Both the position numbers and the translations under genes were made by a program. 64,000 bases of DNA from Brevibacillus choshinensis (lineage in GTDB: Bacteria > Bacillota > Bacilli > Brevibacillales > Brevibacillaceae), in contig NZ_CP069127.1 of assembly GCF_016811915.1 (NCBI RefSeq), positions 2,827,001 through 2,891,000 on the forward strand, in the 5' to 3' direction. Under the pieces are notes generated by a model. That model searched no databases. It saw nothing but the letters and a program-made list of their open reading frames with translations, and was not told the DNA's origin. Shown here one piece after another: positions 24,712 to 51,359 of the stretch (position 1 is its first letter; each line of letters starts with the position of its first letter).

Positions 24712-26124
24712 TCACAGTTTGATTCCCAGACTCCGCTTTTTGCGCACCAATGTCGAGATGTTCACTCCCAGCCTGTCAGCGCATTCTTGCATCGTGCCTG
24801 TTTCCTGCAAGAGCCGTTGAATGTACTCCCGCTCAAAGCGATCGACTGCTTCCTTCAATGGCAAGGACTGATCCATTTTGGCCAGCTGCAAAGGGAGAGA
24901 AGATTGCTGAGACTTGCGAATGGAGGCGGGGAGCTGGTCGATCGTGATTTTTCCGTTTTCACACATGTGGTACGAGCGCTCGACGACGTTTTTCAGCTCG
25001 CGGGTATTTCCGGGCCATTCGTATTCCATCAAAGCTTCCAATGCCTCAGGCTCGACCCGCATTTCCTGCTGGTACTTTTTCTCCAGCATTTTTAAAAAGT
25101 AAAAAATCAGGGCAGGTATGTCCTCGCGGCGATCTCTCAAAGGCGGTACCGAGATGGAAAGGACATTGAGACGGTAGTAGAGATCCTGCCGGAATTGCTT
25201 GCGTTCGACCATCTCTTCGAGGTCGCTGTTGGTGGCGGCGATGATTCGCATGTTGACCTGGCGAGCCGTTTTCCCTCCCAGCCGACGGATCTTGCCGTCC
25301 TGCAGGACATTGAGCAGCTTGAACTGAAGCGGAAAGGGCAGATCACCCACTTCGTCGAGGAAGATGGTTCCGCTGTGCGCGAGCTCCAAGAGTCCTTCCT
25401 TTGACTGACTAGCCCCAGTAAATGCTCCCTTTTCATACCCGAACAGCTCAGATTCGAGGAGGTGATCGGGGATAGCGCCACAGTTGATCTTGATGAAATC
25501 TCCCGTTCTTCCGCTTTTGGCATGAATGTAGCTGGCGAGCACGTCCTTGCCCACACCCGATTCTCCCAGCAGGAGGATCGGTGAGTCATTTCGGGCAAAT
25601 CGCTGCGCCAAAGAGACGATCCGGTGCATCACGTTGCTTCGATAGATCAGCTGTCCTTCGAAACCCATCTCGTTTTGGATCTGCTCCAACGCCTGCTGAA
25701 AGGCAGAATTGATCTGGCGCGTCTCCTCCAGCTCTTGCTGCAGCTGATTCAGCTCCGTAATATCGCGGACGTTTCCTACGACAAACAGGAGCTCCTGATT
25801 CTCATCGAGCAAGGGAGTAGCTGTATTGATCGCTTTTCGGCCGTTTGCGTAGTCGATCACCACGCTGTGGATTTGCTTGGTCTGGATGGCACGTGCTGCG
25901 GAGGAATCCGGGACCATATGCATTTCTTTTTGCTCGATAAAGCTGTAACGGTTCAATACCTCGGCCGGAACGCCTGTAATATGCAGGTATGCTTCATTAT
26001 AGAGAAGGACATGGCCATTTTTGTCACAGATGGCAAGCCCGTCGTGGGAAGTATGGAAAATCGTCGTGATCAATTTGACGAGCTCGTCATTGTCGCTGGC
26101 TTGAAAGAATTGGGTTTGGTACAT
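24712..26124 (-). CDS. sigma-54-dependent activator with PAS domain
   Basis: A 470-residue bacterial enhancer-binding protein. A PAS domain at about residues 15-125 ('DGLAICDKNGHVLLYNEAYL', 'VVGNVRDITELNQLQQELEE') senses the signal. The AAA+ core follows, with Walker A GESGVGKD (187-194), the sigma-54 contact loop GAFTGA (233-238) and Walker B TIFLDEVGD. A Fis-type helix-turn-helix ('MQECADRLGVNISTLVRKKR') ends the protein. The ATG has GGGGG upstream. It is divergent from a 2-oxoacid dehydrogenase operon whose promoter is of the -24/-12 type, so it is almost certainly that operon's activator, comparable in role to AcoR or BkdR. Confidence 0.95.
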   Translation of the reverse strand: MYQTQFFQASDNDELVKLITTIFHTSHDGLAICDKNGHVLLYNEAYLHITGVPAEVLNRYSFIEQKEMHMVPDSSAARAIQTKQIHSVVIDYANGRKAINTATPLLDENQELLFVVGNVRDITELNQLQQELEETRQINSAFQQALEQIQNEMGFEGQLIYRSNVMHRIVSLAQRFARNDSPILLLGESGVGKDVLASYIHAKSGRTGDFIKINCGAIPDHLLESELFGYEKGAFTGASQSKEGLLELAHSGTIFLDEVGDLPFPLQFKLLNVLQDGKIRRLGGKTARQVNMRIIAATNSDLEEMVERKQFRQDLYYRLNVLSISVPPLRDRREDIPALIFYFLKMLEKKYQQEMRVEPEALEALMEYEWPGNTRELKNVVERSYHMCENGKITIDQLPASIRKSQQSSLPLQLAKMDQSLPLKEAVDRFEREYIQRLLQETGTMQECADRLGVNISTLVRKKRSLGIKL

Positions 26125-26187
26125 AAAAGCCCCCTTGAACCGCTTGTGTAATCGAAATAATCAGAATTGAGCATCGTAGCGCAAAAA

Positions 26188-26231
26188 TGCATATGCAAAA
26201 TTGATCATTCGCCTATCTCAACAGGATCAAT
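26188..26231. promoter_or_regulatory. candidate activator-binding sites
   Basis: A perfect palindrome TGCATATGCA (26188-26197) and a 7-bp inverted repeat ATTGATC/GATCAAT (26200-26206 and 26225-26231) lie between the activator gene and its target promoter. They are short and close to the promoter, so assignment to the activator is tentative. Confidence 0.4.
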
Positions 26232-26246
26232 CTGGCGAAAATTCGC

Positions 26247-26263
26247 TTGGCATGCTACTTGCT
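26247..26263 (+). promoter_or_regulatory. sigma-54 (-24/-12) promoter
   Basis: TTGGCATG, 4 bp, TTGCT. The GG (26249-26250) and GC (26261-26262) doublets are 12 bp apart as required, and the match to TTGGCACG-N4-TTGCT has one substitution. Transcription should start near 26274, 33 nt before the E1 alpha start codon. Confidence 0.88.
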
Positions 26264-26306
26264 GTAGTATTTTGCTGGAATGAATCGGAAAGAGAGGGAT
26301 GTATCA

Positions 26307-27374
26307 ATGTCTCCATTATATCAGGTATTGACTCCAGAGGGGCAACTGGTGCAAGACATCGCGGGGCTGCCGGACGAAGCCACCATGATCAAGATGCTGG
26401 AAAATATGCTTCTGGTCCGTTTGTTTGACCGTAAATCGATCAACCTGCAGCGCCAGGGACGCATGGGCACCTATGCCCCATTTGAAGGGCAGGAAGCATC
26501 GCAGGTAGGCAGTGCTATGGCGCTCGCACCAGGTGACTGGCTGTTCCCGACGTATCGGGATCACGCCGCAGCGATTGTCCACGGCCAATCCATGATGAGG
26601 GTGTTCCTGTACTGGATGGGACACATGGAAGGTAGCATCAGTCCTAAAAATTTGAATATCATGCCTCCGTGCGTGCCGATCGCGACCCAAATGGTGCATG
26701 CCGTAGGGACTGCATGGGCGAGCAAGCTCCAAAACGAAAAGCATGTGAGCCTCGCGTACTTTGGGGACGGTGCGACCTCTGAAGGCGACTTCCATGAAGC
26801 CCTGAATTTTGCAGGTGTATTTAAGACTCCGACCGTCTTTTTCTGCCAAAACAATGGGTTCGCCATCAGTGTCCCATTTGAGCAGCAATCTGCTTCCAAG
26901 ACAATCGCTCAGCGCGCAGCCGCCTATGATATTCCAGGCGTGCGAATCGATGGAAACGATATCTTCGCCGTTTGGCTCACGATGAAAAATGCAATCGAGC
27001 GTGCACATGCAGGTGAAGGACCAACGCTGATCGAGGCGATGACGTACCGATACGGCGCCCATACCACAGCGGATGATCCGAAAAAATACAGGGATCAGGA
27101 TAGACTGTCGGAAGAATGGCGACAAGAGCGAGACCCCATCCAACGACTTCGCGTGTATTTGGAAAAGCAAGGCCTCTGGAACGAAGAAAAAGAAAGCGAT
27201 TTCATTGCGGGAGCAGGCGTGAAAATTGATGCGGCTCTGGCTGAGGCAGAGAGCTATCCGAAATCACGTCCGGAAGATATGTTCAAGCACGTCTACGCAG
27301 AGCCTACCTGGATGGCTTCGGAACAGGAAAAAGAGCTCGTGAAGCCAGCCAAGCAGGAGGGTATCCCGGCATGA
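26307..27374 (+). CDS. 2-oxoacid dehydrogenase E1 component, alpha subunit (PDH/BCDH type)
   Basis: A 355-residue TPP-dependent subunit. The TPP motif is 'FGDGATSEGDFHEALNFAGV' ending at 'FFCQNNGFAIS', and 'YRYGAHTTADDPKKYR' is the phosphorylation-loop region of pyruvate and branched-chain E1 alpha. It decarboxylates the 2-oxoacid and passes the acyl group to E2. The ATG at 26307 follows AGAGAGGGA. It is the first gene of a compact operon E1 alpha-E1 beta-E2-E3. Sigma-54 control suggests catabolism (acetoin, branched-chain or similar oxoacid) rather than housekeeping pyruvate dehydrogenase. Confidence 0.93.
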   Translation: MSPLYQVLTPEGQLVQDIAGLPDEATMIKMLENMLLVRLFDRKSINLQRQGRMGTYAPFEGQEASQVGSAMALAPGDWLFPTYRDHAAAIVHGQSMMRVFLYWMGHMEGSISPKNLNIMPPCVPIATQMVHAVGTAWASKLQNEKHVSLAYFGDGATSEGDFHEALNFAGVFKTPTVFFCQNNGFAISVPFEQQSASKTIAQRAAAYDIPGVRIDGNDIFAVWLTMKNAIERAHAGEGPTLIEAMTYRYGAHTTADDPKKYRDQDRLSEEWRQERDPIQRLRVYLEKQGLWNEEKESDFIAGAGVKIDAALAEAESYPKSRPEDMFKHVYAEPTWMASEQEKELVKPAKQEGIPA

Positions 27375-28354
27375 AGCGAAAACTGACCATGATTCAAGCC
27401 ATTACAGAAGCCATGGATCAAAAAATGGCGGAAGATTCACGCGTCATGCTCATGGGTGAGGACGTGGGAGTGAATGGCGGCGTGTTCCGTGCTACGGAGA
27501 ACCTGCTTCAGAAATATGGCGCGAACCGTGTCGTGGATACGCCGCTGGCTGAGGCAGGCATCATCGGGGCTGCCATCGGGCTAGCCATGAACGGGCTATT
27601 GCCGGTTGTGGAAATTCAGTTCCTGGCTTTTATTTATCCAGGCTTCGAACAGATTGTGTCCCACGCTGCGCGGATGCGTTATCGGACACGGGGCCAATAC
27701 CATGTGCCGATGGTCATTCGCACGCCATACGGTGCCGGCATTCGGGGGCCTGAGCTTCACTCGGAGAGCGTAGAGTCGTTTTTTGCTCACGTTCCTGGAT
27801 TGAAAGTAGTCGCGCCAAGCAATCCCTACGACGCAAAAGGGCTCCTGATCGCTGCGATGGAAGATCCAGACCCGGTCATTTTTCTGGAGCCTACGAAGCT
27901 GTACCGGGCATTTAAGGAAGAGGTTCCGGAAGAGATGTATCGTGTACCGATCGGCAAGGCAAAGGTTGTACGGGAAGGAACGGATCTCTCTATCTTTGCC
28001 TGGGGGGCCATGCTCCGTGTAGCAGATGAGGCAGCCAAACAGATCGAGCGTGAGCAAGGCGTCAGCTGTGAGGTAGTGGACCTGCGCACGATTTACCCAT
28101 TGGATCGGGATGCCATCGTTCAATCCGTGAAAAAGACAGGTCGTGCGATTGTGGTTCATGAGGCGCACAAGACAGCGGGCATGGGTGCAGAGATTATCTC
28201 GATCATCAATGATGAAGCCTTGATATACCTGAAGGCACCTGTGAAACGGATTACGGGATTTGATGTCCCTGTTCCACAGTTCAGCATTGAAGATGACTAC
28301 CTGCCAACACCAGGCCGTGTGATGAGCGGAATTATGGAAACGGTTACGTACTAG
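27371..28354 (+). CDS. 2-oxoacid dehydrogenase E1 component, beta subunit
   Basis: A 327-residue partner of the preceding subunit; start and stop overlap (ATGA). Typical blocks are 'VMLMGEDVGVNGGVFRATENL', 'DTPLAEAGIIGAAIGLAMNG' (with the Glu that activates TPP) and 'IVVHEAHKTAGMGAEIISII'. Forms the alpha2-beta2 E1 heterotetramer. Confidence 0.95.
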   Translation: MKRKLTMIQAITEAMDQKMAEDSRVMLMGEDVGVNGGVFRATENLLQKYGANRVVDTPLAEAGIIGAAIGLAMNGLLPVVEIQFLAFIYPGFEQIVSHAARMRYRTRGQYHVPMVIRTPYGAGIRGPELHSESVESFFAHVPGLKVVAPSNPYDAKGLLIAAMEDPDPVIFLEPTKLYRAFKEEVPEEMYRVPIGKAKVVREGTDLSIFAWGAMLRVADEAAKQIEREQGVSCEVVDLRTIYPLDRDAIVQSVKKTGRAIVVHEAHKTAGMGAEIISIINDEALIYLKAPVKRITGFDVPVPQFSIEDDYLPTPGRVMSGIMETVTY

Positions 28355-28370
28355 AGAAGGAGCGAGCGCC

Positions 28371-29618
28371 ATGGTGGAGTTTAAGCTTCCCGACGTGGGT
28401 GAAGGCATGCACGAAGGGGAAATCATCAAAATACTGGTAAAGACAGGAGAGGCAGTCGAGCAAGATCAACCCGTGATGGAAGTGCAGACAGATAAAGTAA
28501 ACGCAGAGCTCTCCGCTCCAGTGAAGGGCGTCATCAAGGAAATTCGCATAGCGGAGGGCGAAACTGTCGAGGTGGGCACGACGCTGCTGGTCATCGAGCC
28601 GACAGCAGGATCGGCCAAGTCAGAAACGGCAGCGACTGTGGAAAAGGCATCTCCTCGACCTGTGAGTTCCCAGCCTTTTCGCACACTAGCGACTCCGTAC
28701 GTACGCCAATTGGCTCGAGAAATGAAGATTGATATCGAAAAGGTCAGCGGGACAGGAGCAGCCGGGCGTGTAACCGAGGAAGATCTGCGCCAATACGCAT
28801 CCTCAGCTTCGGCCAAACCTGTTAAAAGATCGATCGCGCCAGCATCAAACAACGAAGCGGCCCCAGCTCCAAGCGAAAAGACATCGATCGGAATGCAGCC
28901 TTCTGCAAGCACGCAGCAAATCGAGCGGATCCCGATGAAAGGCATCCGAAAAAAAATCGCGGAGCACATGACCAAGTCGGTTACCGTGATTCCACATGTG
29001 ACATCCGTGGACGAGATGGAAATGGATCAGCTCCGTGCCCTGCGAGAACAAATGCTGCCTTTTGCCCAAAAGCGGAATATCAAGCTGACATTCCTTCCTT
29101 TCTTCATCAAGGCTTTGGTGATCGCATTGAAAGAATTCCCGGTGCTGAATGCTTCCATCGACGATGCCACGAACGAAATTTTGATGAAGCGCTTTTACCA
29201 TATCGGAGTTGCCACGGATACGGCAGATGGCCTGATTGTACCGGTCATCAAGGACGCAGATGGCAAATCCATCTTTCAGATCGCCGAGGAGATTTCCCGG
29301 CTGGCGGAGCTCGCACGGGTTGGCAAGCTGACACGGGAGCAGATTACGGGCGGGACCTTTACCGTCAGCAATGTAGGGCCGATCGGAGGTCTGCAGGCGA
29401 CGCCGATCATCAACCACCCTGAGGTCGCTATCATCGCCTTGCACAAAATGGAGAAGCGCTGGGTCGTTCGCGAGGATGAAGGAGTCATTCGCTGGATGAT
29501 GAACGTCTCGCTTTCCTTTGATCACCGCCTGATTGATGGTGTGACAGCGGTAAGGTTTACAAATCGAATCAAGGAATTGCTGGAAAATCCTACTCTATTG
29601 TTTGCGGAGATGGTATAG
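28371..29618 (+). CDS. 2-oxoacid dehydrogenase E2 component (dihydrolipoyl acyltransferase)
   Basis: A 415-residue E2 with one N-terminal lipoyl domain (lipoyl lysine at about 42 in 'VQTDKVNAEL'), a peripheral-subunit-binding domain at about 100-145 ('ATPYVRQLAREMKIDIEKVS', 'GAAGRVTEEDLRQY'), Ala/Pro/Ser-rich linkers, and a catalytic domain ending in 'SFDHRLIDG' with the active-site His and Asp. It forms the core of the complex. Confidence 0.95.
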   Translation: MVEFKLPDVGEGMHEGEIIKILVKTGEAVEQDQPVMEVQTDKVNAELSAPVKGVIKEIRIAEGETVEVGTTLLVIEPTAGSAKSETAATVEKASPRPVSSQPFRTLATPYVRQLAREMKIDIEKVSGTGAAGRVTEEDLRQYASSASAKPVKRSIAPASNNEAAPAPSEKTSIGMQPSASTQQIERIPMKGIRKKIAEHMTKSVTVIPHVTSVDEMEMDQLRALREQMLPFAQKRNIKLTFLPFFIKALVIALKEFPVLNASIDDATNEILMKRFYHIGVATDTADGLIVPVIKDADGKSIFQIAEEISRLAELARVGKLTREQITGGTFTVSNVGPIGGLQATPIINHPEVAIIALHKMEKRWVVREDEGVIRWMMNVSLSFDHRLIDGVTAVRFTNRIKELLENPTLLFAEMV

Positions 29619-31061
29619 ATGGTAGTCGGAGAAGTGGCGGTAGAAACAGACGTAGTTGTGATCGGAGGAGGCCCAGGCGGATACGCAGCCGCTATTCGTC
29701 TGGGGCAATTGGGCAAGTCCGTTGTCTTGATCGAAAAGGGAGAGCTCGGCGGAGTCTGTCTGAATCGCGGCTGCATCCCGTCAAAAGCACTCATTCATGC
29801 TGCGGGTGAGTACCACAAGCTCGCGGGTCTGTCGAAGCTGGGGATCGAACTGCCAGCAGGGGATGCCTCGTTTCACATGCCGAAGTGGCAGAGCTGGAAG
29901 GAGTCAGTGGTTTCCCAGCTGAGTCAGGGTGTCGATCAATTATGCCAAGCCAATGGTGTGACGTTGGTGAAAGGCGTGGCGACGTTCTTGTCCAGTGATC
30001 GGATTGGGGTAGAGACAGGCGGAGATTTTGAGACGTACAAGTTCCGCCATGCCATCATCGCCACAGGATCTCGTCCCTATATCCCTCCTTTTTTAGAACC
30101 AGATCATGAGTATTTGCTCGACTCCACCGATGCATTGAAGCTGCAGGTGATACCCCATACGCTCGCGATTGTAGGCGGGGGCTACATCGGGATGGAACTC
30201 GGAATGGCCTTTGCCAAGCTGGGGTCCAAAGTGACGGTCATCGAAGCGGCTGACCGGATTTTGCCGCAGACGGCTTCGCATCTCACGGCGGAGGTGTTGA
30301 AGCAGGCGAGAAAGCTGGGGATGACCGTGAAATCAGGAACCCTCGTGGAGTCGGCAAACGTGAGCGGCGGCCAAGTCGAGCTCGAAATCCGATCCCCTCA
30401 GAATGGGCATGAACGACTATGCACGGACAAAGCTCTCATCACGATAGGCCGTGTTCCCCATACGGCGGATCTTGGGCTCGCGCAAGCCAATGTCAGTGTC
30501 AGCGAACGGGGGTACATCCCTGTCGATAACACGTGCCGCACCAGCCATCCGCATATTTTCGCGATCGGTGATGTGACGCCAGGTCCGGCTTTGGCGCATC
30601 GAGCCTCCAAGCAGGGGATCGTCGCAGCCGAGGTGATCGCAGGACTTCCCAGCAGTGTCGACTCCCCGTATGTTCCCTATGTCATTTTCACCGAGCCGCA
30701 AATCGCTGGAGTCGGCATGACAAAGGAAGAGGCGCAGCAGCAAGGCTACCAGGTGAAGGTGGCATCTTTTCCCTATCGGGCGAATGGTAAGGCGCTGGCT
30801 ATCGATGCAAAGGAAGGCTTCGCTGAGGTGATTGTGGATGAAAAAAGCCATCTGCTGCTAGGCATGCATGTCGTGGGGGGGGACGCCTCCAATCTGATTG
30901 CGGAAGGCACGCTCGCCTTGGAAATGGCAGCACGTGTCGAGGATGTGGTACTTACGATGCATCCCCATCCGACGCTGAGCGAGGTATGGGTAGAGGCGGC
31001 TGAAGCTGCACTCGGTCACGCCATCCATATCGTCAACAAGCCAAAAGTGGCAACTTCATAG
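29619..31061 (+). CDS. dihydrolipoyl dehydrogenase (E3)
   Basis: A 480-residue flavoprotein that reoxidises dihydrolipoyl-E2 with NAD. It shows the FAD motif GGGPGG (16-21), redox cysteines at about 47 and 52 in 'GGVCLNRGCIPSKAL', the NAD motif GGGYIGMELG, and the C-terminal 'HPHPTLSEVWVEAA' with the catalytic His-Glu pair. The start codon immediately follows the E2 stop, with GGAG about 10 nt upstream inside E2. Last gene of the operon. Confidence 0.95.
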   Translation: MVVGEVAVETDVVVIGGGPGGYAAAIRLGQLGKSVVLIEKGELGGVCLNRGCIPSKALIHAAGEYHKLAGLSKLGIELPAGDASFHMPKWQSWKESVVSQLSQGVDQLCQANGVTLVKGVATFLSSDRIGVETGGDFETYKFRHAIIATGSRPYIPPFLEPDHEYLLDSTDALKLQVIPHTLAIVGGGYIGMELGMAFAKLGSKVTVIEAADRILPQTASHLTAEVLKQARKLGMTVKSGTLVESANVSGGQVELEIRSPQNGHERLCTDKALITIGRVPHTADLGLAQANVSVSERGYIPVDNTCRTSHPHIFAIGDVTPGPALAHRASKQGIVAAEVIAGLPSSVDSPYVPYVIFTEPQIAGVGMTKEEAQQQGYQVKVASFPYRANGKALAIDAKEGFAEVIVDEKSHLLLGMHVVGGDASNLIAEGTLALEMAARVEDVVLTMHPHPTLSEVWVEAAEAALGHAIHIVNKPKVATS

Positions 31062-31186: not shown

Positions 31187-32569
31187 ATGCAAGAGGAGGC
31201 TAGCAGGGAACGAAAATGGCTATTGCAAGAGGTGGAAGGGCTTCTGTCGTTCATCACCTACCCCATTTTGGTGGTCGATCGCTTTGGGCGAGTCATCCAC
31301 GTGAATCCGGCTGCCGAGCATATTTGGCGGCGGTCACAGGTCGTTTTGCTCAATCAAACCCTGCAAGATTTAGTAGAGTCAGCCAAATTGCTAGAATGGG
31401 TGGGAAAAGGGAAACCGCTCCGTGACTTTCCTGTGGAAATGACAGACGGATCGGGAAAAAAATCCCCCTATCTTTGTCGTTTGCACCCTTTGTTCATCAA
31501 CCGGAAAGCAGAAGGCGCCATTCTTCAGTTCACAGAGCAAATACTCGAAACCGAATTCGAAAAAAACAGAAAATACGTGACGCGTTATACGCTTGAAGAT
31601 GTTCGTGGACATAGTCCCGGTATCATGGCGTTAAAAGAGCAAGCGAGAAAAATCGCAAAAAGTGATTCCACTGTCCTGATTCGGGGAGAGAGTGGCACCG
31701 GTAAGGAGGTACTCGCTCAGTCGATTCACCAAGCTAGCTCGAGAAGCGGAGGGCCCTTCGTCGCCATCAACTGTGCGGCAATTCCCGAGGCTCTACTGGA
31801 GAGCGAGCTGTTTGGATACGATGACGGAGCTTTTACAGGGGCGAAAAAGGGCGGGAAGCCGGGACGCTTTGAGCTTGCGTTGAACGGGACCTTATTCCTG
31901 GATGAAATCGGGGACATGCCTCCCTATCTCCAGGCGAAACTGCTGCGCGTCCTGCAAGAGAAGCGAATAGAGAGAGTCGGCGGTTCGGAGAGCATTCCAG
32001 TCGATACTCGTCTGATTGCGGCGACGCACAAAGACTTGGAAGCCATGATCGTCAGTGGACAGTTCCGAGAAGACTTATTTTATCGTTTGCACGTAATTCC
32101 GCTTTACGTTCCTCCCCTGCGCGAGCGTGGCGAGGACTTGTACGATCTGATTCAGTATTATATGAAATCATTTGGCGATCGACTGGGGAAAGAACCCAAG
32201 CGCTTTACGACACAGGCGATGAAATGCCTTCTGGAGTATCATTGGCCGGGGAATATCCGAGAGCTGGAGAACACACTGGAGTATATCGTAAATCTGGAGA
32301 TTGGCGATCTCGTGACGATCAATAGCTTGCCTTCCTCCATTCGCACGAGTCAGAGCAACGGGGAGGTTCAGCGTGCTGCTGCAGCTTCTGCGCCAGCGTA
32401 TCCGGAGCTCTCGATCGAACAAACGGAGGAGCAGCTGATCCTGCAAGCGGTACAGCGTTTTGGGAGGAGCACCGAAGGCAAGAGAAAAGCTGCGGAGTAT
32501 CTGGGAATCAGCGTCGCGACTCTGTATCGGCGGCTGAGCAAGATCAACCGCAAGCATCCCTTGTCGTAA
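31187..32569 (+). CDS. sigma-54-dependent activator with PAS-like sensor
   Basis: A 460-residue enhancer-binding protein. A PAS-like region at about 20-120 ('[20 protein letters not shown]') precedes the AAA+ core with Walker A GESGTGKE (167-174), GAFTGA (214-219) and Walker [10 protein letters not shown]. The C-terminal HTH is '[20 protein letters not shown]'. The PAS sequence differs from that of the activator at 24712-26124, so it answers another signal. It lies 52 bp upstream of a DUF917/HyuA-like pair. The nearest matching -24/-12 promoter is at 36233, before the intact permease-DUF917-HyuA-racemase genes, the likely target. Confidence 0.93.
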
Positions 32570-32621
32570 TGAGAATCTCAGCAAGCAACGATGACCACCA
32601 TACATGCAAAGGAGGCTCTCG

Positions 32622-33761
32622 ATGGGGCGTTTACTTGATGAAAAAGATGTGGATTCGCTTGCCTGCGGTTGTACTTTTCTCGGCTCAGGCGGTGGAGGCG
32701 ATCCGGCGATCATGGCGATCATGGCGAAGCAAGCCATTCGGGAAATGGGTCCCGTTCGTTTGCTCTCACCCTTTGAGCTTCGGGAGGAGGAGTGGGCTGT
32801 AACCATGTCCTTGATGGGCTCGCAAGCCATTCACTACGAGAAAATCATGTCAGGTAAGGAATTGATGACAGCACTCGGCATCCTTGAAGACGAAATACGA
32901 ATCTCGGCTCAAGCAATCACGCCGCTGGAGATAGGGGGAATCAATGCCATTACACCTCTAGTGGCAGCCTCGTTATCAGGTTTGCCGCTAGTCGATTGTG
33001 ATGCGATGGGTCGAGCTTTTCCGGAGTTTCAAATGACGACCTTCCATGCCTTTGGCTCACAAGCAAGTCCGTTCGTAATGTGCGCCGACAACGGACAATG
33101 CGAGCTTCTCCTGCATGACTCCAATTTTGAAATTGAGAAAGAGGCTCGGCTCACGATGACGAAAATGGGAGGTTCCGTTGCAGCTGCCTCTTTTCCCATG
33201 CGGGCGAGTCTCTTGCAAGAGGTGGCCATCCCTCATACCCTGCTGGCGTGCAAAAGGGTAGGTGAAGCAGTACTCGCAGCCGGATCGGATATTCATCGGG
33301 TTTTTGCCAACCTGTCGCAGGTGCTGCACAACTCCATTTACGGGAAGCCTCACAAATTGATCGAGGGGAAAGTCGTCGATGTGCAGCGTCACTTGCAGGA
33401 GGGATTTTTGCAAGGGGAATTGCTCGTGGAAGGCAGCGGCTATCATCATAGCGAGCACCTTGAGGTCAGGTTTTTGAGTGAATACCTGTTGGCAAAGCAG
33501 GGCGAACGGTTATTGGCTACGGTGCCGGATATCTTGTGTGTGCTCGATGCGGACAACGGACTTCCTGTCATGATTGAAGAGCTGGAGATGCACATGAAGG
33601 TGTGGGTGATTGCAATCCCCAGTCCCCTGTTGCTCCGTCATCCCAAGATGCTGGATGTCGTGGGACCTTGGAACTTCGGGGTGGCTGATGCCTTTGTGCC
33701 AGTCGAGCAGCTACTTGCAGAAGAAGGGAATGGCGGACATCATGTATCGACTCGGAATTGA
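32622..33761 (+). CDS. DUF917 family protein (paralogue 1)
   Basis: A 379-residue DUF917 protein. The family hallmarks are present: a glycine-rich loop near the start ('CTFLGSGGGGDP'), 'LEIGGINAITPLVAAS' and 'VDCDAMGRAFPEFQMTTF'. Compared with the second copy (37696-38793), the segment after 'EEEWAVTMSLMGSQAIHYEK' lacks the 'ASGGMGAP' glycine cluster. DUF917 genes occur beside hydantoinase/oxoprolinase A genes and are thought to work with them, but no reaction is established to my knowledge. AAAGGAGG precedes the ATG. It overlaps the following gene by 20 bp. Confidence 0.87.
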   Translation: MGRLLDEKDVDSLACGCTFLGSGGGGDPAIMAIMAKQAIREMGPVRLLSPFELREEEWAVTMSLMGSQAIHYEKIMSGKELMTALGILEDEIRISAQAITPLEIGGINAITPLVAASLSGLPLVDCDAMGRAFPEFQMTTFHAFGSQASPFVMCADNGQCELLLHDSNFEIEKEARLTMTKMGGSVAAASFPMRASLLQEVAIPHTLLACKRVGEAVLAAGSDIHRVFANLSQVLHNSIYGKPHKLIEGKVVDVQRHLQEGFLQGELLVEGSGYHHSEHLEVRFLSEYLLAKQGERLLATVPDILCVLDADNGLPVMIEELEMHMKVWVIAIPSPLLLRHPKMLDVVGPWNFGVADAFVPVEQLLAEEGNGGHHVSTRN

Positions 33762-35130
33762 CGTAGACAGCGAAACAACCACAGGCCTGGTCATGGACAG
33801 CCTAGGAAAGATCGTATGCTGTGCCAGAGAACGGACAACGGCAGATTTGCTTGGAGGAATGGAGCAGGTCCTGCAAAAGATAGGCAAGCGGCAGCAGGAA
33901 GTATGCGGGAGCATCCGGCAAGTCATCATCGGTACGGATTACTTCGCAAATGCCCTGCTCGAAGGGGAGAATCTATCCAAGGTTTGTTCCATCCGCATCG
34001 GTCAGACTCCCAACTCCATTCCTCCGCTGTATGGAGGGGATGAGGCATTGCTGCTGGCGATCCGCCCTCTCGCACTGCACGTAGCAGGAGGACATGAGCT
34101 TGATGGAAGCGTGGGGAAGAAGGATCCGTCTAGACAGGAGCTGGAGGATCGATTGTTGTCCATCAGGAAGCAAGGCTTTCAAGCATTTGCCATTACAGGG
34201 GCATTCTCGCCAGTCAATCAGGAGCATGAAAACCAAGTGGCTCGATGGGTTCGGGAGCTGTGGGGAGATGAGTGTTCGATCACTACGTCCCACGAGCTTG
34301 GGAGTATCGGTTTCTTGGAGAGGGAAAACTCGGCTATTCTCAATGCTGCCTTGTCCAAGCTCATCACCCATTCGCTCAAAGGTCTCAAATGTCTGATTCG
34401 CCGACACCACATTGAAGCATCCATCTACTTTACGCAAAACGACGGATCTCTCTTATCCTATGAATCTGCCCTTCTCCATCCCATTCGCACATATGGATCA
34501 CGCATTTCCAATAGTTTTCGCGGTGCAGCCCTGCTTACCGAGCTGCAGGAATGCGTCATCGTCGATGTGAGCCGATACCGAGTGAACATTGGAGCGATGG
34601 AAGGTGGATTTCCCAGGGAAAAGCGTCGGAATCCAACCATTGCAGGCGTTCACGTCAACCTCAGAATGCCCGACATTACAACTCTCTCACTAGAAGCGAC
34701 TTCTTCTGTTCGTGACGACCTGCTCGATGCGGTTTATCATGCCATCCAACGATTTCAGCCGCGTTTTGAACCGCTGCCGATCGTTTTTGTAGGAGAGGGA
34801 AGTGAGCGGATCGCTTCTGCATTCAACTTTCCGTGGGCGGATGTCCACCTGCCCGGCCATTATCAGAATGCCAGTGCGCTTGGCGCCTGCATTGCACCTA
34901 TCAGCGGAAGCGTAGATCGCATTTATTGGCTGGAAGAACGAAGCCGTGAAGAAACGATCGGGCTTGCCAAGAAAGAAGCTGTACAAGCAGCGGTCAAAGC
35001 AGGAGCAGCACTTGATTCTGTCGTCGTGCAAAAACTGGAAACCATCCCACTCTCCTATATGCCAACCAAAGCCTTGCGTGTCAAAGCGAAGGCGGTCGGA
35101 ACCCTGAATTTTTTCGAGCAAACCCACTAA
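33742..35130 (+). CDS. divergent hydantoinase A/oxoprolinase-like protein, ATP motifs lost
   Basis: A 462-residue HyuA-family protein aligned along its length with the intact copy at 38790-40355. The nucleotide-binding elements of the actin-like fold are degraded: phosphate-1 is 'GIDVDSETTTGLVMD' instead of 'GIDVGGTHTDAVLLD', and phosphate-2 is 'IVDVSRYRVNIGAM' instead of 'VVDVGGTTTDIGVL'. A block of about 59 residues containing 'GLGGGTIVRI' and 'FGGDTLTATD' is deleted after 'MPDITTLSLEATSS'. 'FVGEGSERI' replaces 'LVGGGSILL'. The frame is intact and other regions (GHELDG, GSIGFLERENSAILNA) are conserved, suggesting a retained non-ATPase role. Start at 33742 by alignment; 33730 is possible. 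Confidence 0.85.
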   Translation: MYRLGIDVDSETTTGLVMDSLGKIVCCARERTTADLLGGMEQVLQKIGKRQQEVCGSIRQVIIGTDYFANALLEGENLSKVCSIRIGQTPNSIPPLYGGDEALLLAIRPLALHVAGGHELDGSVGKKDPSRQELEDRLLSIRKQGFQAFAITGAFSPVNQEHENQVARWVRELWGDECSITTSHELGSIGFLERENSAILNAALSKLITHSLKGLKCLIRRHHIEASIYFTQNDGSLLSYESALLHPIRTYGSRISNSFRGAALLTELQECVIVDVSRYRVNIGAMEGGFPREKRRNPTIAGVHVNLRMPDITTLSLEATSSVRDDLLDAVYHAIQRFQPRFEPLPIVFVGEGSERIASAFNFPWADVHLPGHYQNASALGACIAPISGSVDRIYWLEERSREETIGLAKKEAVQAAVKAGAALDSVVVQKLETIPLSYMPTKALRVKAKAVGTLNFFEQTH

Positions 35131-35321: not shown

Positions 35322-35792
35322 ATGGATTCACAACATTCATCAAATGATGCAGATAAGAAACAGGCAAACAATCCGCCATCCAATCGCGCGAAAAAGAAAC
35401 AAACAAACAATCAGTCATCCAACCATGCGAAAAAGAAACAAGCAAATAATCGTTCGTCCAATGGCGCAGAAAAGAAGCAGGCAAACAACCACTCATCAAA
35501 AGAGGCCGAAAAGAAAGACCAGGCTAAGGTTCAATCAGCCTTATTGCCTTGTCTGAATGGCAGAAGTTTGGAGCTCATTGTGGCTAGTCTGCTTTTAACG
35601 GGGAAGCTGAGGGTGGATGCTGTTCAATTGTTTAGACAAGCCACGATGATTGTCAGCTTAACGGGAAAGTACCTCACACTGGACGACTTGAACAATAAAA
35701 ATGTAGATAACATGCTGAAATTTCTAAACGATAATGGAAATGTGACGGTTGATGAAATCTTTCAGGCATTTAAAAAGAAAATGGAGAGTTGA
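35322..35792 (+). CDS. small protein with a Lys/Asn-rich tandem-repeat N-terminus, unknown function
   Basis: 156 residues. I do not recognise a family. Residues about 11-65 are four copies of a 13-residue unit with core KKQANNxSSNxAx, very hydrophilic and basic. Residues about 70-156 look folded, with a hydrophobic segment 'LELIVASLLLTGKL' and a helical tail ending 'VDEIFQAFKKKMES'. GTGGGAGGAG precedes the ATG. The repeats and a tiny hydrophobic partner gene 30 bp downstream recall spore-coat or spore-membrane proteins of Bacillota, but that is only an impression. It separates the degenerate and intact DUF917/HyuA pairs. Confidence 0.7.
   Translation: MDSQHSSNDADKKQANNPPSNRAKKKQTNNQSSNHAKKKQANNRSSNGAEKKQANNHSSKEAEKKDQAKVQSALLPCLNGRSLELIVASLLLTGKLRVDAVQLFRQATMIVSLTGKYLTLDDLNNKNVDNMLKFLNDNGNVTVDEIFQAFKKKMES
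35352..35510 (+). repeat. four imperfect 39-bp tandem repeats inside a coding gene
   Basis: The units encode KKQANNPPSNRAK, KKQTNNQSSNHAK, KKQANNRSSNGAE and KKQANNHSSKEAE. Repeats of this kind change copy number by slippage, so the length may vary between strains. Confidence 0.75.
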
Positions 35793-36009: not shown

Positions 36010-36043
36010 TAAAACCGTCAGAGTGAAAACTGACGGTTTTTTT
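36010..36043 (+). terminator. strong intrinsic terminator
   Basis: AAAACCGTCAG and CTGACGGTTTT pair around an 8-nt loop, followed by a T-run. It isolates the repeat-protein transcript from the sigma-54 operon. The rest of the 402-bp gap 35942-36343 holds the repeats and promoter listed next. Confidence 0.92.
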
Positions 36044-36063: not shown

Positions 36064-36121
36064 GTTGAGAAACGGTGCGATTGTTGAGGAAAATAGATAA
36101 AAATAGAGAAATGTTGAGAAA
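36064..36121. promoter_or_regulatory. candidate upstream activator sites, three GTTGAGAAA repeats
   Basis: GTTGAGAAA (36064-36072), GTTGAGGAAA (36083-36092) and GTTGAGAAA (36113-36121), spaced 19 and 30 bp, lie 110-170 bp before the -24/-12 promoter. This is the usual distance for enhancer sites of sigma-54 activators. The likely ligand is the protein of 31187-32569. Confidence 0.5.
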
Positions 36122-36232
36122 TATTTAGATAAATGAATGTAACTTGAAACATCCATCATACATAACCATTCCTAAATTTCAAAATTTTGGTTGATTTAGT
36201 GGGTCATTATGCGAATATTCCGTGCTTTTGCG

Positions 36233-36249
36233 TTGGTACGGCATTTGCA
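36233..36249 (+). promoter_or_regulatory. sigma-54 (-24/-12) promoter
   Basis: TTGGTACG, 4 bp, TTGCA; GG at 36235-36236 and GC at 36247-36248 are 12 bp apart. Transcription should start near 36260. It precedes the permease-DUF917-HyuA-racemase operon. Confidence 0.88.
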
Positions 36250-36343: not shown

Positions 36344-37666
36344 ATGGCTAGTCATTCAAACATGGCTGACGATTACTCGCTGAGCAGAGTGCCCAAAGAG
36401 GCACGTGTCCCCATGTGGGAAATTCTCGTCATTCGGATCGGTGCGTTTACTTCTCTCAGTCAGTTCATATTGGGTGCATTTCTCGGGTACGGGATGTCTT
36501 TTTGGGATGCTGCGCTTGCCAGTTTTCTGGGAGCGATCATTTTGGAAGTCGTCATTCTGCTCATTGGGATTGCAGGCGCACGTGAGGGACTGTCCACCAG
36601 CATGCTGAGCAGATGGACGGGTTTTGGAAAATACGGATCAAGCATCATCGGATTCGTCATCGCGATTTCTACGATTGGCTGGTTCGGCGTCCAGAATTCC
36701 GTATTTGCCAACGGTATTAATGATGCCTTTGGAGGAGCATTGGGGTTCCCACTGGCCGCCACCCTGACAGGGCTATTTGTCACCGTGATTGTGATTTTCG
36801 GTTTCAAGTGGCTGGGAGTAACGGCCAAGATTGCCGTTCCCGGTTTTTTGCTCACGATCGCTTATGGAATCTACCAGGTGTTTGATAGCCATTCGCTCCC
36901 CGAACTGATGTCGTCGTCGGCGCCAGGTCCCGCACTTTCGCTGGGTGCCGCGGCAACCATGGTGGCAGGAAGCTTCATGGTGGGAGCTGTACTGACGCCG
37001 GATATGACGCGCTATTGCCGAAGCAGCAAGGACGTGCTGTGGTCTACGCTCATCTCCGTGGTGATCGGTGAAATTATCATCAATCTGATTGCGGTCCTCA
37101 TGGCGCACGCTGTGAAAACGAGTGATGTCGTAACCATCGCCTTGCAGACTTCCGGTTGGCTGGGAGCAGCGACAGTTATCTTCGCGACGGTGAAAATCAA
37201 CGATATCAACTTGTATTCCGCATCTTTGGGCTTTACCAATATCATACACGCACTGTTTGGTAAAAATGTGAATCGCGGTCTCATTACTCTCATTGTCGGA
37301 ATGGCGGGAACCATTTTGTCTGTCCTGGGAATCTTGGATCAATTTGTGAATTTCCTCATTTTCCTCGGGGTGTGGATCCCGCCGATCGCCGGAATAATGG
37401 TAGTCGATTATTTCATTTTAAAACGTAGCAGACAAGTGCTGGATGAGAGTCGGATGAATGGTGAACTGCCTGCTGTCTGTGAAACCTGGAATCCGGTTGC
37501 ACTCGTCGCATGGGCTCTGGGCTTTGGAATCGGCTACCTGATTCAATGGGGAATTCCCTCGATCAATTCACTGGCTGTCGCCGGAGTTGTGTACTTCGTT
37601 GGAATGAAGGTTTTCGGGGCAGCTTTGGATCAGAAATGGAATGTGAAGATGGACAAAGCAGGTTAA
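36344..37666 (+). CDS. NCS1-type permease (cytosine permease CodB-like)
   Basis: A 440-residue transporter with about 12 spans, of the nucleobase-cation-symport 1 family (CodB and hydantoin/allantoin permeases). Recognisable parts are 'EILVIRIGAFTSLSQFILGA', 'FGVQNSVFANGINDAFGGAL', 'SFMVGAVLTPDMTRYCRSSK' and 'IPPIAGIMVVDYFILKRSRQ'. It follows GGAGGGG and is the first gene after the sigma-54 promoter. With DUF917, HyuA and a racemase downstream, the substrate may be a hydantoin or other cyclic amide or ureide (inference). Confidence 0.9.
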   Translation: MASHSNMADDYSLSRVPKEARVPMWEILVIRIGAFTSLSQFILGAFLGYGMSFWDAALASFLGAIILEVVILLIGIAGAREGLSTSMLSRWTGFGKYGSSIIGFVIAISTIGWFGVQNSVFANGINDAFGGALGFPLAATLTGLFVTVIVIFGFKWLGVTAKIAVPGFLLTIAYGIYQVFDSHSLPELMSSSAPGPALSLGAAATMVAGSFMVGAVLTPDMTRYCRSSKDVLWSTLISVVIGEIIINLIAVLMAHAVKTSDVVTIALQTSGWLGAATVIFATVKINDINLYSASLGFTNIIHALFGKNVNRGLITLIVGMAGTILSVLGILDQFVNFLIFLGVWIPPIAGIMVVDYFILKRSRQVLDESRMNGELPAVCETWNPVALVAWALGFGIGYLIQWGIPSINSLAVAGVVYFVGMKVFGAALDQKWNVKMDKAG

Positions 37667-37695: not shown

Positions 37696-38793
37696 GTGAG
37701 ACGGATAGGAAAACAGGAAATAGAAGACATCGCAATCGGCGCGGCAGTTTTGGGAACCGGAGGAGGGGGAGATCCGTACATCGGCAAATTGATGGCTCTC
37801 CAGGCAGTGGAAGAATACGGACCCATCACCTTGCTGTCTGTAGATGAGGTGCCAGATGAGGCACTCGTCGTTGCCTCCGGAGGCATGGGCGCTCCGACTG
37901 TTCTCATCGAGAAAATTCCCAGCGGGCATGAAGTGGCGCAGACCTTTCAGGCGTTGGAGAAATACATGGGCAAGAAAGTTTTTGCCACTTACCCGATTGA
38001 GGCGGGAGGAATCAACTCGATGCTTCCTTTGGCGCTTGCGGCACAGCTGAGATTGCCGGTGGTGGATGTAGACGGCATGGGGCGCGCTTTTCCAGAGCTG
38101 CAGATGACGACATTTTACCTCGATGGCATTTCTGCGACTCCGATGGTCCTCGCCGACGAGAAAGGGAACGTCACGATCATGGATACCATCGATAATTCCT
38201 GGACAGAGCGCATCGCCCGCAGCGTCACCGTGCAAAAAGGCGGATCTGCCACATGCGCCATCTACCCGATGTTCGGCAAAAACCTGAAGGAGAGCGGCAT
38301 CCACAGCATCCTGCAGCTGGAGGAAAAGATCGGTCGGGCCATTCGCTTGGCGAAGGAAACGAACGTCGACCCTGTTCAGGAAGTGCTGAAATTGACCGAC
38401 GGCTTTGAATTGTTCCGCGGCAAAGTGGTGGATGTTGACCGCAAGACAGAAGGCGGATGGGCGAGGGGAACGGCAAAGATCGAAGGATTGCTGCAGTACA
38501 AGGGTGAGAACCTCGAGCTTCGTTTCCAAAACGAGCATCTGCTTGCACGTACAAAAGATCGCCTGCTCTGCGTGACCCCTGATCTGATCGCTGTGCTGGA
38601 TTCGGAAACGGGACTTCCGATTACCACAGAAGGCTTGCGCTATGGTGCGCGTGCGGTGGTCATCGGGATGCCGTGCCATCCAAAATGGCGAACGGAAAAA
38701 GGGATCGAGACAGTCGGTCCACGTTACTTCCGTTATGACGCGGATTACATCCCCGTTGAACAGCTGGTGGAGAAAGGAAGTGTTGTGAAATGA
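37696..38793 (+). CDS. DUF917 family protein (paralogue 2)
   Basis: A 365-residue DUF917 protein starting with GTG behind AAGGAGAGAGG. All hallmarks are intact: 'AVLGTGGGGDPYIGKL', 'VVASGGMGAPTVLIEKIPSG', 'IEAGGINSMLPLALAA' and 'VDVDGMGRAFPELQMTTFYL'. Its 3' end overlaps the HyuA gene by 4 bp (ATGA), implying that the two products are made together and may form one enzyme, DUF917 taking the place of the HyuB subunit, which is absent here (inference). Confidence 0.88.
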   Translation: MRRIGKQEIEDIAIGAAVLGTGGGGDPYIGKLMALQAVEEYGPITLLSVDEVPDEALVVASGGMGAPTVLIEKIPSGHEVAQTFQALEKYMGKKVFATYPIEAGGINSMLPLALAAQLRLPVVDVDGMGRAFPELQMTTFYLDGISATPMVLADEKGNVTIMDTIDNSWTERIARSVTVQKGGSATCAIYPMFGKNLKESGIHSILQLEEKIGRAIRLAKETNVDPVQEVLKLTDGFELFRGKVVDVDRKTEGGWARGTAKIEGLLQYKGENLELRFQNEHLLARTKDRLLCVTPDLIAVLDSETGLPITTEGLRYGARAVVIGMPCHPKWRTEKGIETVGPRYFRYDADYIPVEQLVEKGSVVK

Positions 38794-40355
38794 ATTACAG
38801 AATCGGGATTGACGTAGGCGGCACGCATACAGACGCGGTACTCCTGGACAGCGAATATCGGGTGCTGTCCAAGACCAAATCTTCTACCACGCAAGATGTG
38901 AGCACCGGTATCTATGAGGCCATGCGTGAAGTGATCGCACAAGCAGGGGTTCCCCGTGAACAGATCACCTACGCGATGCTGGGAACGACCCATTGCACCA
39001 ATGCGATCGTGGAGAGGAAGCGTTTGAATGAAATTGCGGTCATCCGCATAGGGGCTCCAGCTACGTTCGCCATCAAGCCATTGGTGGGTGTACCGGATGA
39101 CCTGCGTGAACATCTGGGGAAACGCGTGTATATCGTTCGAGGTGGACACGAGTTCGATGGGAGAGAAATCGTAAAGCTGGATGAGGAAGAGCTCTATCGC
39201 ATTGCGCGTGAGATCAAAGGGAAGGTGGACTCTGTCGCGGTCGCCTCCGTATTCTCCCCAGTATCCAAGGAGCACGAGATGAGAGCAGGAGAAATCCTGC
39301 GCGAAGTACTCGGGGAAGAAACCCCCATTTCCCTCTCGTATGAGATTGGAAGTGTCGGCTTGCTGGAACGGGAAAACGCTACGATTTTGAATGCTTCCAT
39401 CGTGACTGTGGCAAAAACGACAGCTTACGGCTTTATGGACGCACTCAAAGCGGAAGGCGTCCATGCGCGTGTCTTTTTTGGACAGAACGATGGCACGTTG
39501 ATGAGCATCGAATACGCCATCAAGTATCCGATTCTCACCATCGGCTGCGGCCCTACGAACAGTATCCGCGGAGCCTCTTATTTGTCCGGACTGGCGAATG
39601 CCCTCGTCGTGGATGTAGGTGGGACGACCACAGATATCGGCGTACTCGTCAACTCCTTCCCGCGCGAATCTTCGCTGGCAGTTGAAATAGGGGGAGCCCG
39701 CACGAATTTCCGGATGCCTGACCTGATCTCGATCGGTTTGGGTGGCGGTACGATTGTTCGAATTCAAGAGAATGGACAGTTTACCGTCGGACCGGACAGC
39801 GTCGGCTACCAGCTGCCGCAAAAAGGACTCGCATTTGGCGGGGATACATTGACTGCGACCGATGTCGTGATTGCGCTTGAAAAGGTGAAGCTGGGCGATC
39901 CTCAAAAAGTAGCCCATCTGGATAAAGAACTCCTCGAGAATGTGTACAGCCGCATCGTAGAGATGGCTGAAGAGGCGATTGACAAGATGAAAACCAGCGC
40001 GGAACCTGTTCCCGTCATTCTGGTTGGCGGAGGCAGCATCTTGCTGCCGGACGTATTAAAAGGGGCATCCCAAATCATCCGTCCCGAAAACTTTGGTGTG
40101 GCGAATGCCATCGGTGCGGCTATTGCGCAAATCAGCGGGCAGATCGATCGAGTCTTTTCCCTGGATGAAACCGGCCGGGAAAAAACGCTGGAAACAGCCA
40201 AACGTATGGCGATCGATGAAGCCATCGCAGCGGGTGCGGAGCCGGAAACGATCGAGATCGTCGAGTTCGAGGATATTCCATTGTCCTATCTGGGTAATGC
40301 CACAAGGATTCGAGTAAAGGCAGCTGGAACGCTCGCAGCACCGGTAGAGGTGTGA
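38790..40355 (+). CDS. hydantoinase/oxoprolinase family protein, A subunit
   Basis: A 521-residue HyuA-type protein. The actin-like ATPase motifs are intact: phosphate-1 'GIDVGGTHTDAVLLD', the 'GTTHCTNAIVERK' region, phosphate-2 'VVDVGGTTTDIGVL', 'GLGGGTIVRI' and adenosine motif 'ILVGGGSILLPD'. Such enzymes hydrolyse a cyclic amide (hydantoin, 5-oxoproline or related) with ATP. No B-subunit gene is nearby; DUF917 occupies that position. A racemase follows after 58 bp. Confidence 0.92.
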   Translation: MNYRIGIDVGGTHTDAVLLDSEYRVLSKTKSSTTQDVSTGIYEAMREVIAQAGVPREQITYAMLGTTHCTNAIVERKRLNEIAVIRIGAPATFAIKPLVGVPDDLREHLGKRVYIVRGGHEFDGREIVKLDEEELYRIAREIKGKVDSVAVASVFSPVSKEHEMRAGEILREVLGEETPISLSYEIGSVGLLERENATILNASIVTVAKTTAYGFMDALKAEGVHARVFFGQNDGTLMSIEYAIKYPILTIGCGPTNSIRGASYLSGLANALVVDVGGTTTDIGVLVNSFPRESSLAVEIGGARTNFRMPDLISIGLGGGTIVRIQENGQFTVGPDSVGYQLPQKGLAFGGDTLTATDVVIALEKVKLGDPQKVAHLDKELLENVYSRIVEMAEEAIDKMKTSAEPVPVILVGGGSILLPDVLKGASQIIRPENFGVANAIGAAIAQISGQIDRVFSLDETGREKTLETAKRMAIDEAIAAGAEPETIEIVEFEDIPLSYLGNATRIRVKAAGTLAAPVEV

Positions 40356-40413
40356 CGACCATCCACGTGAATGAAGGCCAATCCACGATTTCATAGAAAG
40401 AGGGATTCAGTTG

Positions 40414-41136
40414 ATGAAAATCAGAGTCTTATTGCCAACCATCATGGATATTTTCAATGAAGAGGTCAAACAGGAATTTGCGCACTATTTGGATGAAACG
40501 ACAGAAGTTCAGGTTTGCAACTTGGATTATGGACCAGCCTCTGTAGAAGGGGAGTACGACGAAGCGTTGGCCATCCCGAACATGCTGGAAAAAGCGATCG
40601 AAGCGCAAAACGAAGGATGCGACGGCATCATCAGCCTGTGTTTTGCAGACCCCGGTGTGAAAGCGGCTCGTGAAGCACTGGACATCCCTGTCATCGGTGC
40701 AGGGGAATCCTCGATGCTATTTGCCAGCATGCTGGCGAAATCCTATTCCGTCGTCACTGTGCTGCCGAATGTCATCTCCATGATTGAAAATGTAACGAAA
40801 TCGGTGGGTGTTCACGGCAAGCTGGCCTCCATCCGCTATGTGGATATCCCTGTTTTGGACCTCGTAGATAAAGAAAAAATGGAACAATCCTTATTCGAAG
40901 AAATGGTGAAGGCGATCGAGCTCGATAAAGCCCACGCACTGATTTTGGGCTGCACCGGAATGATGGGTGTCGCAGAAAATCTCCAGACCAAGCTGAAAGA
41001 ACACGGCTATGACGTACCCGTCATCGATCCATCATTTGCCTCTGCGAAAGTGCTGGAAAGTGTGATTTCCATGAAGGTCAAACAAAGCAAGCTGACTTAC
41101 ATGAAGCCTACGGAAAAGCTCCGTACATCGAGATAA
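40414..41136 (+). CDS. Asp/Glu/hydantoin racemase family protein
   Basis: A 240-residue protein of the aspartate/glutamate/hydantoin racemase superfamily. The two catalytic cysteine regions are 'GIISLCFADPGVKAAREAL' and 'LILGCTGMMGVAENLQ', with an 'IPVIGAGESS' linker. Hydantoin racemases interconvert the isomers of 5-substituted hydantoins before ring opening, which fits the HyuA neighbour. The ATG at 40414 (behind AGAAAGAGGGA) is preferred over the TTG just before it. Last gene of the sigma-54 operon. Confidence 0.88.
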   Translation: MKIRVLLPTIMDIFNEEVKQEFAHYLDETTEVQVCNLDYGPASVEGEYDEALAIPNMLEKAIEAQNEGCDGIISLCFADPGVKAAREALDIPVIGAGESSMLFASMLAKSYSVVTVLPNVISMIENVTKSVGVHGKLASIRYVDIPVLDLVDKEKMEQSLFEEMVKAIELDKAHALILGCTGMMGVAENLQTKLKEHGYDVPVIDPSFASAKVLESVISMKVKQSKLTYMKPTEKLRTSR

Positions 41137-51180: not shown

Positions 51181-51359
51181 TTTCTCCGCATCTGATTTCT
51201 GCAAATAATCTGTGGAGACACTCACAAATCCTGCCACAGAATATTCTGATCTATAATGGGGAGTATGGTACGGCATAAATTGTAGAACGGAACAAACGGG
51301 AAAATCACCTAAGGAAGATTGGAACGCTTATTGCTTGTAATAGATTGCGGGGGGATGTT

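Follow-up and report, generated by a model that had tools for sequence, protein, structure and literature searches.

A HyuA paralogue without ATP-site motifs and its DUF917 partner as a candidate co-sensor pair of a sigma-54 activator in Bacilli

Proteins of the ASKHA fold have become regulators in the ROK repressors of the NagC, Mlc, and XylR type, some of which have lost kinase function. In Lactococcus, DhaQ, a paralogue of DhaK, is said to serve as a co-activator. To our knowledge, DhaR is the best worked case in which small-molecule-binding paralogues control a sigma-54-type activator. In that system, DhaR is held inactive by DhaK, which binds to its sensing domain, and is switched on by DhaL in its unphosphorylated form (PMC12821955, which cites Baechler et al. 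2005 EMBO J).

Here, we describe a locus of Brevibacillus choshinensis, located in a window of 64,000 nucleotides (the whole stretch of DNA that was analyzed), in which a HyuA paralogue without ATP-site motifs (HYUd) and a DUF917 paralogue (DUFd) lie next to a sigma-54 activator (ACT). The locus resembles the DhaR system, in which the kinase proteins of an operon control the enhancer-binding activator of that operon, itself equipped with a sensing domain (PMC12821955). However, DhaK and DhaL are working enzyme subunits, whereas the genes described here form a separate, ATP-site-less paralogous pair beside the activator, whose putative contact with it is suggested by gene linkage and weak correlated divergence. 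Like DhaQ, which is reported to be a ligand sensor derived as a non-catalytic paralogue of the regulated enzyme, the pair would sense without catalysis, but DhaQ reportedly has another fold, acts as a single protein, and works with a TetR-type regulator. Unlike the ROK repressors, HYUd has no DNA-binding domain, and its effect would be exerted in trans, through a second protein; a role as a ROK-like repressor was rejected because no DNA-binding HTH was present, only Hydant_A_N and Hydantoinase_A being matched, and because nothing precedes the ASKHA strand at the start of the structure model. The HyuA subunits of ATP-dependent hydantoinases, caprolactamases, and acetophenone carboxylases share the whole fold of HYUd, but HYUd has neither their ATP motifs nor the segment that would correspond to their two-helix protrusion. 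Pseudoenzyme co-regulators and ASKHA-fold regulators are already known. None of the papers searched described a regulatory role for DUF917/HyuA paralogues, or a HyuA without its ATP site that is tied, together with DUF917, to a sigma-54 activator.

Layout of the locus and loss of ATP-site motifs in HYUd

In the host genome (6.17 Mb, single contig), the genes follow each other on the forward strand in the order ACT, DUFd, HYUd, terminator-like hairpin, NCS1 permease, canonical DUF917, canonical HyuA, and racemase. ACT (31187-32569) is composed of a PAS-like N-terminal region (PAS_4, 2.6e-5), an AAA+ domain with GAFTGA (PF00158, 3.3e-71), and a Fis-type HTH (HTH_8, 3.6e-5). DUFd and HYUd stand close behind it, and an intrinsic terminator-like hairpin of 11 pairs followed by a T run (36011-36040) separates them from the sigma-54 operon, cutting the pair off from the target. 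This operon encodes an NCS1-type permease of the cytosine/purine/allantoin/hydantoin class (36344-37666; PF02133, 1.7e-30), a canonical DUF917/S-Me-THD-like protein (37696-38793; PF06032 and PF20906, with an NCBIfam S-methyl thiohydantoin desulfurase match of 1.4e-31 that lies below the cut-off), a functional-looking canonical HyuA with all ATP motifs (38790-40355; PF05378, 1.7e-43 and PF01968, 3.2e-34), and an Asp/Glu/hydantoin racemase (40411-41136; PF01177, 7.2e-38). A gene for a small protein lies between HYUd and the sigma-54 operon (35322-35792); it contains 39-bp tandem repeats, which encode KKQANN..SSN units, and its product matched no Pfam family.

The window is unusually rich in sigma-54 units. 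Directly upstream of ACT, the region 24712-31061 holds a pyruvate-dehydrogenase-like E1alpha/E1beta/E2/E3 operon that has a -24/-12 site (26247) and a divergent sigma-54 activator (24712-26124, minus strand) of its own. Regulation of this operon by ACT is unlikely, given that site and that activator; the operon adjoins ACT in only one other locus (L036). Further downstream (51319-54239), a PRD/PTS-type sigma-54 activator of 964 aa with EIIA domains is closely preceded by a -24/-12-like site, found at 51319.

HYUd (33742-35130) encodes 462 aa, from an ATG at 33742 to a stop at 35130, in an open frame, and its homologues begin at the equivalent position. It belongs to the HyuA/hydantoinase-oxoprolinase family both by profile (PF05378, 2.1e-15, 57.4 bits for a cut-off of 25.2; PF01968, 5.2e-7, 29.6 bits for a cut-off of 22.9) and by its full fold. 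Alignment with the canonical HyuA at 38790-40355 (521 aa, 35% identity) upheld the altered phosphate loops described in the sequence-only reading: DVGGTHTD has become DVDSETTT in the first loop and DVGGTTTD has become DVSRYRVN in the second, leaving the first Asp of each loop in place but not its Gly and Thr neighbors. The same reading proposed a deletion of about 59 residues covering GGGT and GGDT. The net loss is indeed 59 aa, in gaps of about 54 and 8 aa, and the GGDT segment is deleted, but in place of GLGGGT HYUd has the substitution SLEATS, not a clean deletion. In addition, VGGGS reads VGEGS in HYUd. By its motifs, HYUd is a homologue of the ATP-dependent hydantoinases but not itself one, as DxGGTxTD, DxGGT, and the Gly-rich adenosine side are all missing.

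The changes were not evenly spread over the protein. Among the 135 columns that are invariant in canonical HyuA copies, HYUd keeps the family residue at 83 and changes it at 52, and the changed columns are enriched in the ATP motifs (13/21 vs 39/114 elsewhere, p = 0.026). At the family-invariant columns, a mean of 5.9 different residues was found in HYUd at ATP-motif positions compared with 2.8 elsewhere. HYUd retains the blocks GGH.xDG, S.E.G..G...REN, and QNDG, which are located away from the nucleotide, and shows constraint that is new and specific to its clade at Q336, Q339, P340, F349, and P364-W365. An R-x-Q near residue 337 is common to all activator-linked HyuA proteins, where most canonical copies have K-M-K-T instead.

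The AF2 model of HYUd (pLDDT 88.5, pTM 0.88) matched HyuA structures of the PDB over 432-446 aligned residues, almost the full protein, the best matches being 5l9w_b (Z 25.5 over 432 residues), 6yra (Z 23.7), and 9h03 (Z 21.4). In the AF2 model of the canonical HyuA, the segment missing from HYUd forms a beta hairpin and short helices (322-374), and its position in the model suggests that it may be the equivalent of the two-helix protrusion of the relatives.

DUFd (32604-33761; PF06032, 2.7e-48 and PF20906, 8.8e-45, both domains well above cut-off) is a DUF917/S-Me-THD-like paralogue that overlaps HYUd by 20 bp in the host window. Its start is probably at 32622, just after an AAGGAGG site, and not at 32604. 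The idea that DUFd had lost a glycine cluster was correct for part of that cluster (ASGGMGAPT to MSLMGSQAI), but its degeneracy is weaker than that of HYUd, with 60 of the 78 invariant columns of the functional DUF917 set kept and 18 changed. On these sequence grounds, DUFd could still be enzymatically active. DUF917 proteins have been described as uncharacterised (PMC11055893), and NCBIfam now names some of them thiohydantoin desulfurases; relatives of DUFd carry the names S-methyl thiohydantoin or thiohydantoin desulfurase, with scores far below the cut-offs of those models.

Distribution of the HYUd clade and selection

Searches of relatives and of named genomes yielded 18 HYUd orthologues in 17 Bacilli genomes of the genera Brevibacillus, Aneurinibacillus, Ammoniphilus, Paenactinomyces, and Parageobacillus. 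The carriers include Brevibacillus reuszeri, B. centrosporus, B. parabrevis, B. fluminis (two loci), and B. massiliensis, as well as Paenactinomyces guangxiensis and Parageobacillus thermantarcticus. In a phylum-wide sample of 398 Bacillota genomes, every inspected locus except that of the host was canonical, and no degenerate copy was found beyond the Bacilli in the searched set; a wide distribution across Bacillota was therefore rejected, the degenerate clade being limited to Bacilli in the genomes searched.

All 18 orthologues have open frames, lengths of 454-466 aa, and the same segment deleted. When compared with 40 intact copies, the P2 motif was intact in none of them, P1 in a single one, and the GGGT/GGDT segment in none, and most members retained the Asp that opens each loop. 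A deletion common to 18 orthologues in 17 genomes is explained neither by chance nor by sequencing error. In an unrooted HyuA tree, three groups were each well supported. The 18 HYUd proteins were placed on one side of a branch with a support of 100/97-99, and the 40 canonical copies on another (100/100). The copy of locus L105 was on a very long branch.

Pairwise codon models gave omega values of 0.156 (dS 0.25), 0.088 (dS 1.3), 0.193 (dS 0.46), and 0.144 (dS 1.1) for HYUd, and of 0.135, 0.068, 0.122, and 0.126 for DUFd, compared with 0.023-0.09 for canonical HyuA. For the close HYUd pairs, the likelihood-ratio statistic against omega = 1 was 84-302. HYUd is thus held by selection, somewhat less tightly than the canonical enzyme, and omega values of 0.09-0.19 in close pairs argue against gene decay. 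Together with the 18 open frames, these values agree with the earlier view of HYUd as an intact, conserved gene, and they lie far from the dN/dS near 1 that plain decay would leave. HYUd, which has lost its catalytic motifs while purifying selection acts on it, is by these features a candidate pseudoenzyme.

Linkage to the activator, promoter, and putative enhancer array

The order ACT-DUFd-HYUd was found in all 18 loci, and a permease-DUF917-intact HyuA operon then follows in 17 of them. Enzyme loci with an ACT orthologue had a paralogous pair in 19/19 cases (17 with HYUd, two with an intermediate pair), whereas enzyme loci without ACT had one in 0/19, a contrast drawn from loci of related species that are not independent. 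The pair goes with ACT and not with the enzyme, and a DUFd-HYUd pair without the activator was never found among the loci examined.

Several loci depart from this arrangement. In G242 (4.0 Mb, listed as 100% complete), a divergent module comprises ACT'', DUFd'', and a degenerate HYU'', with no other PF06032 gene. This stand-alone module (L105, 9093-13343, minus strand) has the DUF917-HyuA pair itself behind a -24/-12 site and a GAKAAA array, and no other operon with such an array in front of it was found in that genome. A second ACT-DUFd-HYUd module of B. fluminis (L044, 3612-7707) has no enzyme genes beside it; the genes that come next encode a chemotaxis receptor, an HD-domain protein, and an ABC transporter. 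In L048 and L049, a sister module consists of an activator 47-50% identical to ACT, a DUF917', and a HyuA' that keeps P1, P2, and GGGS and has lost most of the GGDT segment; it stands before a different DUF917/HyuA enzyme pair, followed by large frames. Finally, G021 encodes an ACT orthologue of about 77-79% identity (L047, 7641-9050) with neither DUFd-HYUd nor the enzyme, and no DUF917 gene in the genome. This lone ACT is likely a remnant of a lost system.

The N-terminal region of ACT keeps pace with the pair in its divergence, with mean distances of 0.80 for this region, 0.87 for HYUd, 0.72 for DUFd, and 0.27 for the AAA+ domain of ACT. Mirror-tree correlations were 0.71 for HYUd-DUFd and 0.41 for HYUd-ACT, but the HYU-ACT control was also positive (0.51). 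Partial correlations were positive.

Upstream of the permease, a -24/-12 sigma-54 promoter-like site, TTGGTACGGCATTTGCA (36233-36249, forward strand), reached a score of 25 of 27 and has equivalents in other loci. It is preceded by an array of GAKAAA half-sites in 10-bp phase (36067-36133, forward strand), a putative enhancer (UAS) of ACT that is also present in homologous loci. The three-repeat core of this array (36096-36121) occurred once in the 6.17 Mb host genome in a pattern search, before the 36.3 kb operon, and in G016, G032, and G242, with one mismatch allowed, it likewise occurred nowhere but at this module. A GAKAAA array lies upstream of nearly all of these -24/-12 sites, and the half-sites are most often spaced by exactly 10 bp (23 cases); 26 spacings fell within 10-12 bp, compared with 0.1 expected from shuffles. 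GAKAAA counts were not clearly above chance in L034, L041, L043, L044, and L046.

The position of the promoter differs between loci. In the Brevibacillus group closest to the host, the -24/-12 site is found before the permease. In at least nine HYUd loci (type B, from Aneurinibacillus, Ammoniphilus, Paenactinomyces, Parageobacillus, and others), it stands behind ACT and in front of DUFd, which makes the pair itself a target, at the head of the induced operon. This arrangement is compatible with an enzymatic role as well. Because the array shifts together with the promoter, it is marked, from its sequence and placement, as the probable binding site of ACT. Sigma-54 is present in all genomes tested, and ACT, with its AAA+ domain carrying GAFTGA, its Fis-type HTH, and a -24/-12 target, is by its predicted features a sigma-54 enhancer-binding activator. 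The connection between the pair and the adjacent activator, raised as a possibility in the sequence-only reading, gained support from the strict gene order in 18 loci, from the G242 module without a functional DUF917/HyuA, and from the array and the -24/-12 site before the 36.3 kb operon.

Proposed role of the pair and alternative explanations

The motif loss, conservation, gene linkage, array, and promoter reported above form the observed base of our proposal, and we infer from them ligand binding, physical contact with ACT, and the sign of regulation. We lean, with some reserve, towards DUFd-HYUd being a dedicated ligand-binding co-regulator, or pseudoenzyme co-sensor, of ACT. A HyuA/DUF917 pair would have been duplicated and then recruited by the neighboring sigma-54 activator. 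HYUd would have retained the fold of HyuA, together with those conserved surfaces that lie apart from the nucleotide, and lost the beta hairpin and two-helix protrusion that contributes to the ATP site in relatives, the phosphate loops drifting afterwards. It would probably bind the substrate or product of the operon without ATP turnover, and the permease, racemase, and enzyme neighbors suggest a hydantoin-like or thiohydantoin-like ring as the ligand. Together with DUFd, it would alter the activity of the PAS/AAA+ activator, which, from its place at the GAKAAA array, would drive the permease-DUF917-HyuA-racemase operon through its single -24/-12 promoter. Against this proposal, the pair is induced with the enzymes in at least nine loci and is, in G242, the sole operon found to have such an array before it, DUFd keeps most invariant residues, G021 has ACT alone, and ACT correlates with HYU to about the same degree as with HYUd.

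The main rival, which we consider rather unlikely, is that DUFd is a working hydrolase or desulfurase whose ring substrate requires no phosphorylation, with HYUd as a non-catalytic scaffold, the pair being catabolic or making the true inducer as a "trigger enzyme". The 60 of 78 invariant columns kept in DUFd, the below-cut-off desulfurase labels of its relatives, and the position of the pair as a sigma-54 target in type B loci and in G242 speak for such an enzyme. However, in the Brevibacillus group, the pair belongs to the transcription unit of the activator, with a terminator before the induced operon, it was never seen without an activator in the loci examined, and nearly all of these loci have the canonical enzyme pair too.

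It is also conceivable, though doubtful, that HYUd and DUFd mix with the intact DUF917/HyuA pair as regulatory or structural subunits and tune its activity. Both pairs share a gene cluster in 17 of the 18 loci, and natural complexes with two HyuA proteins exist in the family (Apc alpha and alpha', PMC5214803), but in G242 the module occurs in the absence of an intact pair, the L044 module has no enzyme beside it, and the 19 enzyme loci without ACT have no such pair.

A pair that still binds nucleotide in a changed mode, acting as an energy or ligand switch, appears very improbable. Most HYUd proteins retain the first Asp of each loop, and the intermediates of L048 and L049 keep P1, P2, and GGGS; however, the Gly, Thr, and second Asp are lost and drift freely, and in the caprolactamase subunit CapA, the single changes D11A and D295A, which affect the first Asp of either loop, each leave only traces of activity (PMC8453981). 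Finally, plain decay of a redundant duplicate has next to no credibility and, like an artefact, was ruled out: HYUd does evolve faster than the intact copy (mean distance 0.87 vs 0.23), but the omega values and likelihood ratios, the 18 open frames with their common deletion, and the new clade-specific invariant residues all oppose it.

Returning to the co-sensor proposal, we hold it an even question whether these genes make up an unreported three-gene regulatory cassette, formed of a PAS/AAA+ sigma-54 activator, a DUF917 paralogue, and an ATP-site-less HyuA. A whole enzyme pair would here have been duplicated and stripped of its ATP chemistry to give a ligand sensor that couples to different target operons or stands alone, with an intermediate (phosphate loops intact, GGDT segment lost) preserved in two genomes. 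If true, the transition from enzyme to sensor would be visible in its steps in living genomes, from the intact pair through the intermediate pair beside an activator to the ATP-site-less pair beside an activator. Annotation pipelines would label the module as hydantoinase/oxoprolinase family protein, and it would be read as catabolic. With one activator, one enhancer array, and one promoter, the locus would offer a testable system for the control of sigma-54-type activators by small-molecule-binding paralogues, and a handle on the substrate of the DUF917/HyuA operons.
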